64,000 bases of DNA, from assembly GCF_000787775.1 (NCBI RefSeq), contig NZ_BBPM01000012.1, forward strand, positions 8,277-72,276, read 5' to 3'. Below, one piece after another: positions 628 to 3,476 of this stretch. The DNA is from Streptacidiphilus carbonis (GTDB lineage: Bacteria; Actinomycetota; Actinomycetes; Streptomycetales; Streptomycetaceae). Position 1 is the first letter of the stretch. The number at the start of each line of letters is the position of its first letter. Both the position numbers and the translations under genes were made by a program. Under the pieces are notes generated by a model. It was not told the origin of the DNA, made no database searches, and worked only from the letters and a program-made list of their open reading frames with translations.

Positions 628-1329
628 ATGCGCGCCGCGCGCCGACTGCTGATCGTCCTGATCGTCCTCGCCGCCCTGTTCGTCGCGGCCGACAGGATCA
701 CCCTGCACATAGCCGAGAGCCAGGCCGCGAGCAAGATCCAGACCGAACGGAAACTGCCCCAGAAGCCGAAGGTCAGCATCGAGGGCTTCCCCTTCCTGAC
801 CCAGCTCGCTTCCAAGAAGTTCGACGAGATCAAGCTGAGCGCCCCCGAGCTGACCGTGAACGACGGCAAGGGCGGCCCGGACATCCAGCTGCAGAACTTC
901 CGCATCGACGCCAAGAACGTCAAGGTCACCGGCGACTACAGCGGGATCGTCGCAGGCAGTGGCACCGGCACCGCCCGGATCTCCTACGCGGACCTCTCCG
1001 CCGCCCTGCCCAACAAGGTCACCGTCGGCTACGGCGGCGCCCCGGGGAAGGTCAAGGTCTCCGGCACGTTCGACGTCCCGGTCCTGGGGGCGCAGCAGGT
1101 CTCCGGCACCGCCGACATCAGCGTGGTGGACGGCAACGGCATCAGCCTGAACAACATCAGCGGGATCAGCGGTGTGGACCCCACCGTCGCGTCCCTGGTC
1201 TCGTCCTTCCTCCAGCCCAAGCTGCAGCTGGCCGGCCTGCCCAGCGGACTCCGACTGGACACGGTGCAGCCGGGTCCCGACGGAATCGACGTCACGGTCT
1301 CCGGCACCGACGTCTCGCTCGGCAACTGA
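628..1329 (+). CDS. LmeA-like phospholipid-binding protein (DUF2993)
   Basis: The 233-aa protein starts with a short basic stretch and one hydrophobic helix (about residues 6-25, RLLIVLIVLAALFVAA), which is either a membrane anchor or a signal peptide. The rest is a beta-rich, charge-balanced domain with repeated 'G-x-P-F-L-T-Q-L' and 'V-D-P-T-V-A' type segments typical of DUF2993/LmeA. In mycobacteria LmeA binds phospholipid and supports mannan elongation in the periplasm; transfer of that role to this protein is inference. The ATG at 628 is preceded by GGGAG at good spacing. It stands alone and ends before a hairpin terminator. Confidence 0.8.
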   Translation: MRAARRLLIVLIVLAALFVAADRITLHIAESQAASKIQTERKLPQKPKVSIEGFPFLTQLASKKFDEIKLSAPELTVNDGKGGPDIQLQNFRIDAKNVKVTGDYSGIVAGSGTGTARISYADLSAALPNKVTVGYGGAPGKVKVSGTFDVPVLGAQQVSGTADISVVDGNGISLNNISGISGVDPTVASLVSSFLQPKLQLAGLPSGLRLDTVQPGPDGIDVTVSGTDVSLGN

Positions 1330-1396
1330 GCCCCGAGGGCATCCCGACCGCACCCCGCCCGCCACCCGGACCCCACCCCGGCGGCAGCCGCCGTCC

Positions 1397-1437
1397 CGAT
1401 CCGCGAGACGCGCCGTCCATCACCGTCTCGCGGATCG
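1397..1437 (+). terminator. Hairpin downstream of the LmeA-like gene
   Basis: Perfect 14-bp inverted repeat (1397-1410 and 1424-1437, arm CGATCCGCGAGACG) with a 13-base loop, 67 bases after the stop of the LmeA-like gene. No U-tract is present, which is usual in this group. It separates that gene from the cysA leader. Confidence 0.65.
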
Positions 1438-1550
1438 GTAGGACACCCCTCCCGGCGCCCCCTCGGCCCCCGCCCGGAACCGGCCCACCGGGCCCCCGCA
1501 ATCCCCAGTATCGCCATCCGGACCATTTCATCCCACTATTCAAGACACCG

Positions 1551-1579
1551 ATGACAGGGCGCTCTCCGTTCCCTAGCAT
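1551..1579 (+). promoter_or_regulatory. Candidate promoter of the cysA leader transcript
   Basis: ATGACA at 1551-1556 and TAGCAT at 1574-1579 are separated by 17 bases, a good match to a housekeeping-sigma promoter. The expected transcription start falls about 7 bases after the -10 box, on or next to the ATG at 1587, so the leader peptide mRNA would be leaderless. No ribosome site precedes that ATG, which agrees with this. Confidence 0.55.
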
Positions 1580-1586
1580 CGAACCC

Positions 1587-1667
1587 ATGAAGCGACAGGC
1601 GGATCTCACGAAGCGGCGGGCGGTAGACCTGTGCCGCGTGGCCGCCTGCCTCTGTCGAATGCGCTGA
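1587..1667 (+). CDS. Cysteine-rich leader peptide (26 aa) of the cysA-sseC operon
   Basis: The 26-codon ORF begins MKRQADLTKRRAVDL and ends CRVAACLCRMR, with three Cys codons (TGC, TGC, TGT) in its last eleven codons. Such short ORFs, basic at the N-terminus and Cys-rich at the end, sit upstream of sulfur-assimilation genes in actinobacteria and act as cysteine-sensing leader ORFs in mycobacteria. Here it lies 175 bases ahead of the cysA sulfurtransferase and right after a promoter that would make it leaderless. Three hairpins follow, two of them mutually exclusive, so ribosome stalling at the Cys codons could choose between structures. The peptide itself probably has no other role. Too short for ordinary ORF calling. 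Confidence 0.75.
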   Translation: MKRQADLTKRRAVDLCRVAACLCRMR

Positions 1668-1682
1668 CAGGGCGCCACTCGT

Positions 1683-1729
1683 CCGTCCAGGACGGTTCCG
1701 CCCGCAGGCTGCGGGGCTCGCTGAGCCCC
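1683..1729 (+). promoter_or_regulatory. Putative Cys-responsive attenuator upstream of cysA
   Basis: Three perfect hairpins follow the leader peptide: 1683-1695 (CCGTC/GACGG), 1701-1715 (CCCGCA/TGCGGG) and 1713-1729 (GGGGCTC/GAGCCCC). The second and third share bases 1713-1715 and cannot both form. This is the layout expected for attenuation or translational gating controlled by a ribosome that stalls at the Cys codons just upstream. Confidence 0.5.
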
Positions 1730-1842
1730 CATCGCGTACATCTCGCAGACCACTGCCGCGCCGTCCCACGATCCGGACTCCCCTTCGGACGCATGTTCGC
1801 GCGGCCTCGCTCTTCCGCAACTGCCCCGGATGGAGAATCCCC

Positions 1843-2682
1843 ATGAGCCGCAGTGACGTCCTGGTAAGCGCCGACTGGGTCCAGGACCACCTGGACGACC
1901 CGAAGGTCGTCGTCGTCGAGGTCGACGAGGACACCGCCGCGTACGACAAGAACCACATCCGCAACGCCGTCCGGATCGACTGGAAGAAGGACCTCCAGGA
2001 CCCGGTCCGCCGCGACTTCGTGGACCAGGCCGGCTTCGAGGCGCTGCTGTCCGCCAAGGGCATCGCCAACGACGACACCGTCGTCCTCTACGGCGGCAAC
2101 AACAACTGGTTCGCCTCCTACGCCTTCTGGTACTTCAAGCTGTACGGCCACGGCGACGTCCGCCTGCTGGACGGCGGCCGCAAGAAGTGGGAGCTCGACT
2201 CCCGCGACCTGGTCGACGGCTCCGCGGTCCCCGAGCGCGCCGCCACCGAGTACAAGGCCCAGGCCCAGGACTCGTCGATCCGCGCCTTCCGTGACGACGT
2301 CGTCGCCGCGATCGGCGTCCAGAACCTGGTCGACGTCCGCTCGCCCGACGAGTTCTCCGGCCGCCTGCTCGCCCCCGCGCACCTTCCGCAGGAGCAGTCG
2401 CAGCGCCCCGGCCACGTCCCGAGCGCCCGCAACATCCCGTGGTCCAAGAACGCCAACGACGACGGCACCTTCAAGTCGGACGAGGAGCTGAAGGCCCTCT
2501 ACGAGGCCGAGAACGTCGACCTCTCGAAGGACACCATCGCCTACTGCCGCATCGGCGAGCGCTCCGCGCTCACCTGGTTCGTGCTGCACCAGCTGCTCGG
2601 CCAGACCAACGTCAAGAACTACGACGGTTCCTGGACCGAGTACGGCAGCCTCGTCGGCGTGCCGATCGAGCTCGGCAACTGA
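1843..2682 (+). CDS. cysA: Thiosulfate sulfurtransferase (tandem rhodanese)
   Basis: The 279-aa protein has two rhodanese domains, an inactive N-terminal one (about residues 5-125) and an active C-terminal one (about 150-275). The catalytic Cys is C235 in the loop CRIGERS, the six-residue active-site loop of thiosulfate sulfurtransferases. It moves sulfane sulfur from thiosulfate to cyanide or a thiol acceptor in the cytoplasm. The ATG at 1843 follows GGAGAATCCCC. The sseC gene follows on the same strand after 36 bases, the same pairing as mycobacterial cysA2-sseC1 and the Streptomyces homologues. The leader peptide and hairpins upstream suggest control by cysteine supply. Confidence 0.93.
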   Translation: MSRSDVLVSADWVQDHLDDPKVVVVEVDEDTAAYDKNHIRNAVRIDWKKDLQDPVRRDFVDQAGFEALLSAKGIANDDTVVLYGGNNNWFASYAFWYFKLYGHGDVRLLDGGRKKWELDSRDLVDGSAVPERAATEYKAQAQDSSIRAFRDDVVAAIGVQNLVDVRSPDEFSGRLLAPAHLPQEQSQRPGHVPSARNIPWSKNANDDGTFKSDEELKALYEAENVDLSKDTIAYCRIGERSALTWFVLHQLLGQTNVKNYDGSWTEYGSLVGVPIELGN

Positions 2683-2718
2683 GCAACAGCCCGGCAACCG
2701 AGCAGAAGGAGTAGAGAC

Positions 2719-3009
2719 ATGTGTGGAGCGAAGGCCGGCGGCCCCGATCTGGCAGGAGTTGACGTGGCGAGCGAGACCATCATCCAGGGTTCGGTGACCC
2801 GCGACGGCGAGCCCGTCAACGGCTACGTCCGCCTGCTCGACGAGGGCGGCGAGTTCACCGCGGAGGTCCCGACCTCCGCGACCGGGCAGTTCCGCTTCTT
2901 CGCCGCCCCCGGCACCTGGACGCTCCGCGCCCTCGTGCCCGGCGCGACCGTGGACCGCGTGGTCGCCGCCCAGCAGGGCGCGGTCGCCGAGGTGGCCATC
3001 GCCGTCTGA
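2719..3009 (+). CDS. sseC: DUF1416 protein SseC
   Basis: This 96-aa protein begins MCGAKAGGPDLAGVDV and continues with a small beta-sandwich-like domain (ETIIQGSVTRDGEPV, then GQFRFFAAPGTWTLRALVPG). It belongs to DUF1416, the family of mycobacterial SseC proteins that always accompany the CysA-type sulfurtransferase. The Cys at position 2 is conserved in the family and may accept sulfur; that is inference. The start has AGAAGGAG upstream. It is co-transcribed with cysA and followed by a strong bidirectional hairpin. Confidence 0.88.
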   Translation: MCGAKAGGPDLAGVDVASETIIQGSVTRDGEPVNGYVRLLDEGGEFTAEVPTSATGQFRFFAAPGTWTLRALVPGATVDRVVAAQQGAVAEVAIAV

Positions 3010-3025
3010 CGGCACCCGTACGAAC

Positions 3026-3056
3026 CCGAGGCCCCGCGCCCAGCGCGGGGCCTCGG
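3026..3056. terminator. Bidirectional terminator between sseC and the DsrE gene
   Basis: Perfect 14-bp stem (CCGAGGCCCCGCGC at 3026-3039, complement at 3043-3056) with a CCA loop, placed between two converging genes. Confidence 0.8.
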
Positions 3057-3068
3057 CCTTGTTCTGTC

Positions 3069-3092
3069 CTCAGGGGCGCGGGGAACTGCCCG
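3069..3092 (+). repeat. Partial copy of a dispersed intergenic repeat
   Basis: The segment CAGGGGCGCGGGGAACTG recurs near-identically at 11210-11224 and, inverted, at 8148-8172. This is the common Streptomyces intergenic repeat core; here only the core is present. Confidence 0.6.
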
Positions 3093-3113
3093 AAACGGAC
3101 GCAGAGCCCTCGC

Positions 3114-3476
3114 TCAATACACCAGCGCCTGCACCTCGTCCCCCATCACCTCGCTCACGAACACCTGCGCGCCGGCGATCCGGACCCCCTCCAGCACGTC
3201 GGCGGAGCCGATCCCCCGCCGGGCCGCGCACTGCGTGCACAGGGTGACAGCCCCCCCGCCCAGCACCGCGTCCAGCAGCTCCGGCAGCGGCGCCGCATGG
3301 GGAAGCTCGAACTCCGCCGCCCGCCCCGGCAGCGCGAACCACGCGGACTCCCCGGTGAGCCACAGCGACACCTCCACCCCGCTCGCCACGGCGACCGCCG
3401 CAACCGTGAACGCCTGCGAGCACCGCTCCGGCGCGTCCGCTCCCGCGGTGACCTTGATGACCAGCTTCTTCGACAT
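3114..3476 (-). CDS. DsrE family protein
   Basis: The 120-aa protein starts MSKKLVIKVTAGADAPERC, a glycine-poor Rossmann-like first strand typical of DsrE/DsrF proteins, and has a second part with LCTQCAARRGI (CxxC) near residues 80-90. DsrE-type proteins bind or relay sulfur as small cytoplasmic subunits. The CxxC and the position next to cysA-sseC fit a role in sulfur handling, but this is inference. It converges on sseC across the terminator and has its own promoter region shared divergently with the 35-aa membrane peptide. Confidence 0.8.
   Translation of the reverse strand: MSKKLVIKVTAGADAPERCSQAFTVAAVAVASGVEVSLWLTGESAWFALPGRAAEFELPHAAPLPELLDAVLGGGAVTLCTQCAARRGIGSADVLEGVRIAGAQVFVSEVMGDEVQALVY

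Follow-up and report, generated by a model that had tools for sequence, protein, structure and literature searches.

The cysA-sseC operon of Streptacidiphilus carbonis is preceded by a short open reading frame encoding a leader peptide of the Ms5788A type, and cysteine sensing by this leader is very probable. The window, the whole stretch of 64,000 nucleotides that was analyzed, comes from an 8.46-Mb draft genome (G000). A promoter placed at leaderless distance from the leader start, a match to a named peptide family, a conserved peptide with one nearly fixed UGU codon, and a conserved complementarity between the leader and a block beside the cysA Shine-Dalgarno sequence are observed in this window and its relatives. 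The reading that we place first, with a probability of about one half, is an attenuator of the Ms5788A type in which a stalled ribosome would free the cysA ribosome-binding site. Four parts of this reading we infer: cysteine as the signal, stalling of the ribosome, a block of initiation by the pairing, and an output at the level of translation.

Architecture of the cysA-sseC locus

The features of the locus are as follows.

1551-1579, plus strand: promoter with -35 ATGACA (1551-1556), 17-nt spacer, and -10 TAGCAT (1574-1579), from a consensus scan
1587-1667, plus strand: leader ORF of the Ms5788A type, 26 amino acids and a TGA stop, from NF042933 and NF042934 matches and conservation
1618-1624, plus strand: leader segment GGGCGGU, codons 11-13, complementary to 1820-1826, as in 127 of 152 family loci
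1632-1634, plus strand: Cys16 codon TGC, position +6 of the core, with Cys in 70 of 74 representative leaders
1653-1655, plus strand: Cys23 codon TGT, position +13 of the core, invariant Cys, with UGU in 194 of 196 rows
1668-1819, plus strand: spacer, C-rich and G-poor, unconserved in sequence and length by alignment and composition, holding both hairpins discussed below
1820-1826, plus strand: ACUGCCC block just 5' of the cysA Shine-Dalgarno sequence, conserved in the alignment
1828-1835, plus strand: Shine-Dalgarno region of cysA, GGATGGAG, from the sequence
1843-2682, plus strand: cysA, rhodanese-type sulfurtransferase, operon gene 1 (PF00581; NF008557 match below cut-off)
2719-3009, plus strand: sseC-type gene, DUF1416, operon gene 2 (PF07210)

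The consensus scan of 1330-2000 returned one sigma-70-like site, compared with a mean of 0.1 in shuffled sequence. The -10 element ends 7 nt before the leader ATG, as expected for a leaderless mRNA, and the transcript is accordingly of the predicted leaderless type, with its start at the leader AUG. The ORF, the first before the cysA operon, encodes MKRQADLTKRRAVDLCRVAACLCRMR and stops 175 nt before the cysA start. Its three Cys codons (16, 21, and 23; Cys21 is TGC at 1647-1649) are noncontiguous and all fall within the final 11 codons. A first-pass annotation of this DNA had described a 26-codon ORF with three late Cys codons at the predicted transcription start, and the sequence bears this description out; its view of the ORF as a Cys leader peptide of the leaderless type, placed before cysA-sseC, is supported by the family match and by conservation. 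The peptide scores 47.3 bits against NF042933, the "Ms5788A family Cys-rich leader peptide" (curated cut-off, 45), and 35.8 bits against NF042934, the "cis_reg_atten" putative leader peptides (cut-off, 27). By these sequence matches, the window leader is assigned to a previously named family of leader peptides that sense cysteine. The NCBIfam equivalog match and the presence of the leader in 94 of 94 relatives place the ORF beyond chance. An alternative in-frame start at ATG 1551 would give 38 amino acids and a slightly higher NF042933 score (48.8 versus 47.3 bits for the 1587 start); it was rejected because this ATG sits in the -35 element and conservation in the alignment begins at 1587. A search of 1300-3300 against Rfam (E up to 1) gave three matches, all far below the gathering score and none in the leader, and the global structure of the leader is no more stable than that of shuffled sequences (z 0.03).

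The gene names cysA and sseC come from the first-pass annotation and from general knowledge. The gene upstream of the promoter (628-1329, same strand) encodes an LmeA-like phospholipid-binding protein (PF11209) and is not obviously sulfur-related. Downstream, the interval between sseC and a DsrE-family gene on the opposite strand (3114-3476) contains a perfect 12-bp G+C-rich inverted repeat with a loop of 3 (3028-3054) that lacks a marked T-run after it and is probably a terminator for both genes. The earlier suggestion that the leader perhaps also controls the adjacent sulfur relay is not supported by this arrangement, in which the DsrE-family gene is convergent to sseC and the inverted repeat intervenes.

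Conservation of the peptide and of one UGU codon

The 94 loci first examined comprise 14 of the genus, the window included, and the 80 best named relatives of the window's cysA (records mostly under the name Streptomyces, a few under Kitasatospora and Actinacidiphila), and were searched with the motif RR..DLC. In all 94, the leader is present and a TA...T hexamer lies 6-10 nt upstream of its start, and the distance from leader stop to cysA ranges from 114 to 425 nt. In an alignment of the 89 loci with a spacer of at most 260 nt, the promoter, the leader, and the block adjacent to the Shine-Dalgarno sequence are conserved and the spacer is not. Nine of the 94 family leaders (e.g., L050, L051, L056, and L073) have an N-terminal extension (35 amino acids) before the same core. 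The search of the other loci used the motif R[RCHS][ATPSIV][VIL][DEN].[CRGHS][RHL] and required a TA...T hexamer 4-10 nt ahead of the start as well as a Cys among the last 16 residues. Within the window's family, 152 of 154 rows contain the leader; the two that do not, L281 and L282, are second cysA-like copies in two family genomes, with no such leader within 480 nt. Outside this family, a leader is present within 480 nt in 25 of 80 loci. Twenty of the outside loci were refetched with 3.5 kb of upstream sequence, and 19 of these have a leader, which mostly precedes a small gene, presumably DUF4395, that stands before cysA; the remaining 36 outside loci without a leader were searched within 480 nt upstream only. 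Among the 196 rows, L196 (the same as L245) belongs to both the 25 and the 19 and is counted twice. L143 is just 133 nt long, the start calls are off for L137, L144, and L206, and the named-genome and genus-set loci may share genomes.

The conserved core of the peptide reads KRRAVD-x-C-R, with synonymous sites free. Among 74 representatives of 13 families, the codons for Arg0, Arg1, and Asp4 have no first- or second-position differences between families, those for Arg7 almost never differ at these positions, and the Leu-3 codon differs just at its synonymous first position. With third positions of these core codons differing in 37-68% of between-family comparisons, conservation acts on the amino acids and not on the RNA, a result that is built in to some extent because the search motifs require core residues. 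Leu-3, the fixed place of the Cys at +13, and the choice among the allowed letters at Arg1, Asp4, and Ala2 lie outside this motif bias.

The Cys located 13 residues after Arg0 is encoded by UGU in 194 of 196 rows (139 of 141 distinct leaders). Elsewhere in these leaders, Cys is mostly encoded by UGC, with UGU at 51 of 317 codons (40 of 241 in distinct leaders), and UGU is the less used Cys codon in the long ORFs of the window (14 of 83). Both exceptions at +13 are found in f3, a family with runs of Cys. In 5 of the 196 rows, two of which are the same place, Cys+13 is the sole Cys. Inspection of the alignments by eye revealed no constant partner near the Shine-Dalgarno sequence for the UGU region, and a codon-level reason for UGU is therefore preferred; the codon might be kept, for example, through slower wobble decoding. 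The next base is C in 181 of the 196 rows and T in the other 15, a bias that may reflect a further constraint at this site besides the codon itself.

Related leaders are present elsewhere in the host genome. Five places, including that of the window, pass the NF042934 cut-off, and all five have UGU at +13; three of the others are followed by genes with ThiS, binding-protein-dependent permease, and nitrite/sulfite reductase domains. A sixth leader, L010, on the minus strand with its core near 1500 (G000:C129:29251-29304), reads MDPNGRNEAAGLTRRLVIDLCRAAASRCR and scores below this cut-off. It is leaderless-like, has UGU at +13, and lies 122 nt before a putative gene that we take for DUF4395. When the 28 loci among the genus matches listed are considered with the six of the host genome, UGU stands at +13 in 22 of 23 distinct leaders, and the exception, L009, scores below the NF042934 cut-off. 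The divergently placed leaders L005 and L006, with one Cys each, have a Shine-Dalgarno-like GAGGTGAG ahead of a GTG start codon and lack a -10 at leaderless distance, suggesting that the leader family may also work on leadered mRNAs.

In this actinobacterial family, the chain R-x-x-[VI]-D-x-x-R thus sits exactly 13 residues before the near-invariant UGU Cys, and the arrangement persists both in single-Cys leaders and in those related leaders that precede other sulfur-related genes. The sensor could be the nascent peptide together with one UGU codon, not the number of Cys residues, with the peptide in the tunnel sensitizing the ribosome to slow decoding of UGU in the manner of an arrest peptide. 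We hold this proposal tentatively, as one that stands a reasonable chance but is not the one we would bet on. If the fixed peptide and the UGU codon were the sensor, cysteine attenuation would be nascent-chain-assisted codon sensing. A peptide that acts as a free small protein, not via its own translation, would also account for amino acid-level conservation at non-Cys residues. However, a single genome has related leaders in front of different sulfur-related genes, and the codon choice at one Cys is fixed, which would be needless for a free product; we consider such a role improbable.

Proposed pairing beside the Shine-Dalgarno sequence, the spacer, and its hairpins

In the mycobacterial system, stalled ribosomes are said to block RNA structures that hide the ribosome-binding site, and the reading we prefer for the window is of the same kind. 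The cysA-sseC mRNA would start at the leader AUG. A ribosome supplied with sufficient Cys-tRNA would read through the leader and leave, and the freed codons 11-13 could pair with the block beside the cysA Shine-Dalgarno sequence, so that little cysA would be translated. Under cysteine shortage, the ribosome would pause at Cys codons of the leader (Cys16 and the UGU of the invariant Cys23) and block this pairing, such that the ribosome-binding site would be open and cysA-sseC would be made. Support for this ribosome-binding-site model comes from the NF042933 match, from the leader and -10 in 94 of 94 loci, and from the complementarity in 127 of 152. The size of the ribosome footprint counts against it, as part of 1618-1624 would stay exposed if the ribosome stalled at Cys23 alone.

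In most loci, codons 11-13 read GGGCAGU or GGGCGGU and the block reads ACUGCCC or ACCGCCC. Seven standard pairs (G.U allowed) can form in the 127 family loci, and the variable pairs are A-U in 94, are G-C in 22, and include G.U in 11. The combinations are GGGCAGU/ACUGCCC (94 loci), GGGCGGU/ACCGCCC (22), GGGCGGU/ACUGCCC (10), and GGGCGGU/AUUGCCC (1), and ACCGCCC is found solely with GGGCGGU, a combination present in all 20 of the g14 genus loci and in two named loci. Full seven-pair complementarity is missing in 25 of the 152 loci. In a group of Streptomyces, L091, L101, L112, and L113 (S. smyrnaeus, S. qinglanensis, S. albus, and S. diacarni), the leader is kept and the complementary block is lost. 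In the Mycobacterium-like family f3, the poly-Cys codons themselves match the block adjacent to the Shine-Dalgarno sequence, over 9 bp in L228 and L231 and over 12 bp in L234. Class-wide swap tests used 45 of 63 representatives, namely, all 39 outside the window's family and 6 of its 24. When scored by ungapped complementarity, a fraction of 0.0016 of 5000 permutations reached the native mean (0.0138 without the window's family); the same class-wide test scored by duplex energies gave no signal (0.48). A cysA tree of 134 rows places just three changes in the leader bases and three in the block bases, few events for a test of independence.

Folding predictions are less favorable to the pairing. 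The predicted probability of the seven pairs is low, with a mean of 0.07 in 60 of the 152 family loci and a value of 0.015 in the window. When the window leader was masked through Cys23, the probability of being unpaired rose from 0.36 to 0.69 for the block and from 0.16 to 0.25 for the Shine-Dalgarno sequence, and masking at Cys16 gave no gain. Across 58 of the 152 family loci, Shine-Dalgarno accessibility was 0.421 for the full sequence, 0.395 when masked at Cys16, and 0.416 when masked at +13, rising in 20 of 58 loci with the Cys16 mask and in 30 of 58 with the +13 mask. Leader pairing as a thermodynamic switch is thus mostly not supported by these models.

The spacer offers a different basis for control. 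Its mean composition is 0.46 C and 0.29 G, and the C/G ratio exceeds 1.3 in 144 of 152 family loci and in 34 of 44 rows of other families; among upstream regions of the window, 4 of 27, including that of cysA, exceed this ratio. Rho loading sites are free in sequence and length and keep their composition, and the spacer likewise keeps its composition while its sequence and length are free. In a Rho-dependent attenuator, a ribosome that finishes the leader would allow Rho to load on the C-rich, G-poor spacer and end transcription before cysA, and at low cysteine a ribosome stalled near the leader end would hide the loading region. Composition is weak evidence here, the untranscribed region upstream of the promoter (1330-1540; 0.51 C, 0.24 G) being C-rich as well, and Rho leaves the conserved block beside the Shine-Dalgarno sequence unexplained. 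We regard termination by Rho as somewhat unlikely but as a serious rival and our second choice after the ribosome-binding-site model.

The spacer also contains two perfect hairpins, CCCGCA-GGC-TGCGGG at 1701-1715 (6 bp) and GGGGCTC-GCT-GAGCCCC at 1713-1729 (7 bp), and the earlier description of them as sharing three bases is exact (1713-1715). The first-pass annotation had further taken them as mutually exclusive structures that make a complete attenuation switch. In such a switch, they would terminate or permit transcription according to the position of the ribosome. Overlapping stems of at least 6 bp each arise in just 2.4% of 500 shuffles of the window spacer, and leader nucleotides 1616-1623 complement 1698-1705 over 8 nt, which could complete a trp-like switch in this genome. 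The pair is unusual in this genome alone, but it is not conserved: overlapping pairs occur in 3 of 14 genus loci and in 12 of 152 family loci, compared with 8.3 expected from shuffles, in a spacer that is itself variable. The 8-nt complement of the window is matched by 19.5% of 200 spacer shuffles, and family-wide the best leader-spacer complement scores 20.58 in native and 20.62 in shuffled sequences, with the native value higher in 71 of 152 loci. In addition, no terminator-like site was found in 1330-2000, and, given the size of its footprint, a ribosome on the leader Cys codons should stop short of 1701. An intrinsic-terminator attenuator would have conserved exclusive hairpins and a terminator, and neither was found. 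The hairpin switch is rejected because the hairpins are unconserved and the leader-spacer complementarity is at the level of shuffles; we judge it highly improbable, and the two hairpins are most likely incidental.

Comparison with known leader peptides

The accessible text of Shell 2015 (PMC4633059) describes a small ORF with a Cys cluster before mycobacterial cysA2, for which attenuation was speculated, and, as described in papers citing Canestrari 2020, such ORFs exert cysteine-dependent control of translation in M. smegmatis. Similar to Ms5788A and the mycobacterial leaders, the window leader has a leaderless-type start, the core LTKRRAVDLCR, and a Cys cluster near its end, and precedes cysA. 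The main differences are the number and placement of the Cys residues and the location of the complementary segment. Leaders of the window's family have two or three scattered Cys residues, whereas mycobacterial runs reach six; a contiguous run of Cys codons is present in f3 and absent in the window, which has Cys 16, 21, and 23 only. Because the window peptide passes the cut-off, the NF042933 model does not need a Cys run. In the window's family, the complementary segment of the leader precedes the Cys codons; in the mycobacterial type, it is within them. The related leaders of the window's genome and genus that belong to NF042934 have the same core register and terminal UGU Cys, but this is a broad model, with members before various sulfur-related genes, some of them not leaderless-like.

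Among streptomycetes, the accessible text on Streptomyces lividans TK24 (PMC8079986) lists eight attenuator leader peptides of the leu, trp, ala, ilv, met, and thr types. Like the window leader, these are leaderless leader peptides of a streptomycete, and several are without a typical terminator; unlike the window leader, none in that list is of a cysteine type. A literature search recognized no paper on the Streptomyces version, with most subscription papers outside its reach, and we make no claim that it is unpublished. The family match and conservation place a cysA-sseC operon of the Streptomycetaceae in a cysteine-sensing leader family first noticed in mycobacteria. Evolution did not keep the local hairpins; what it kept is the core of the peptide, a single UGU codon, and the block next to the ribosome-binding site.
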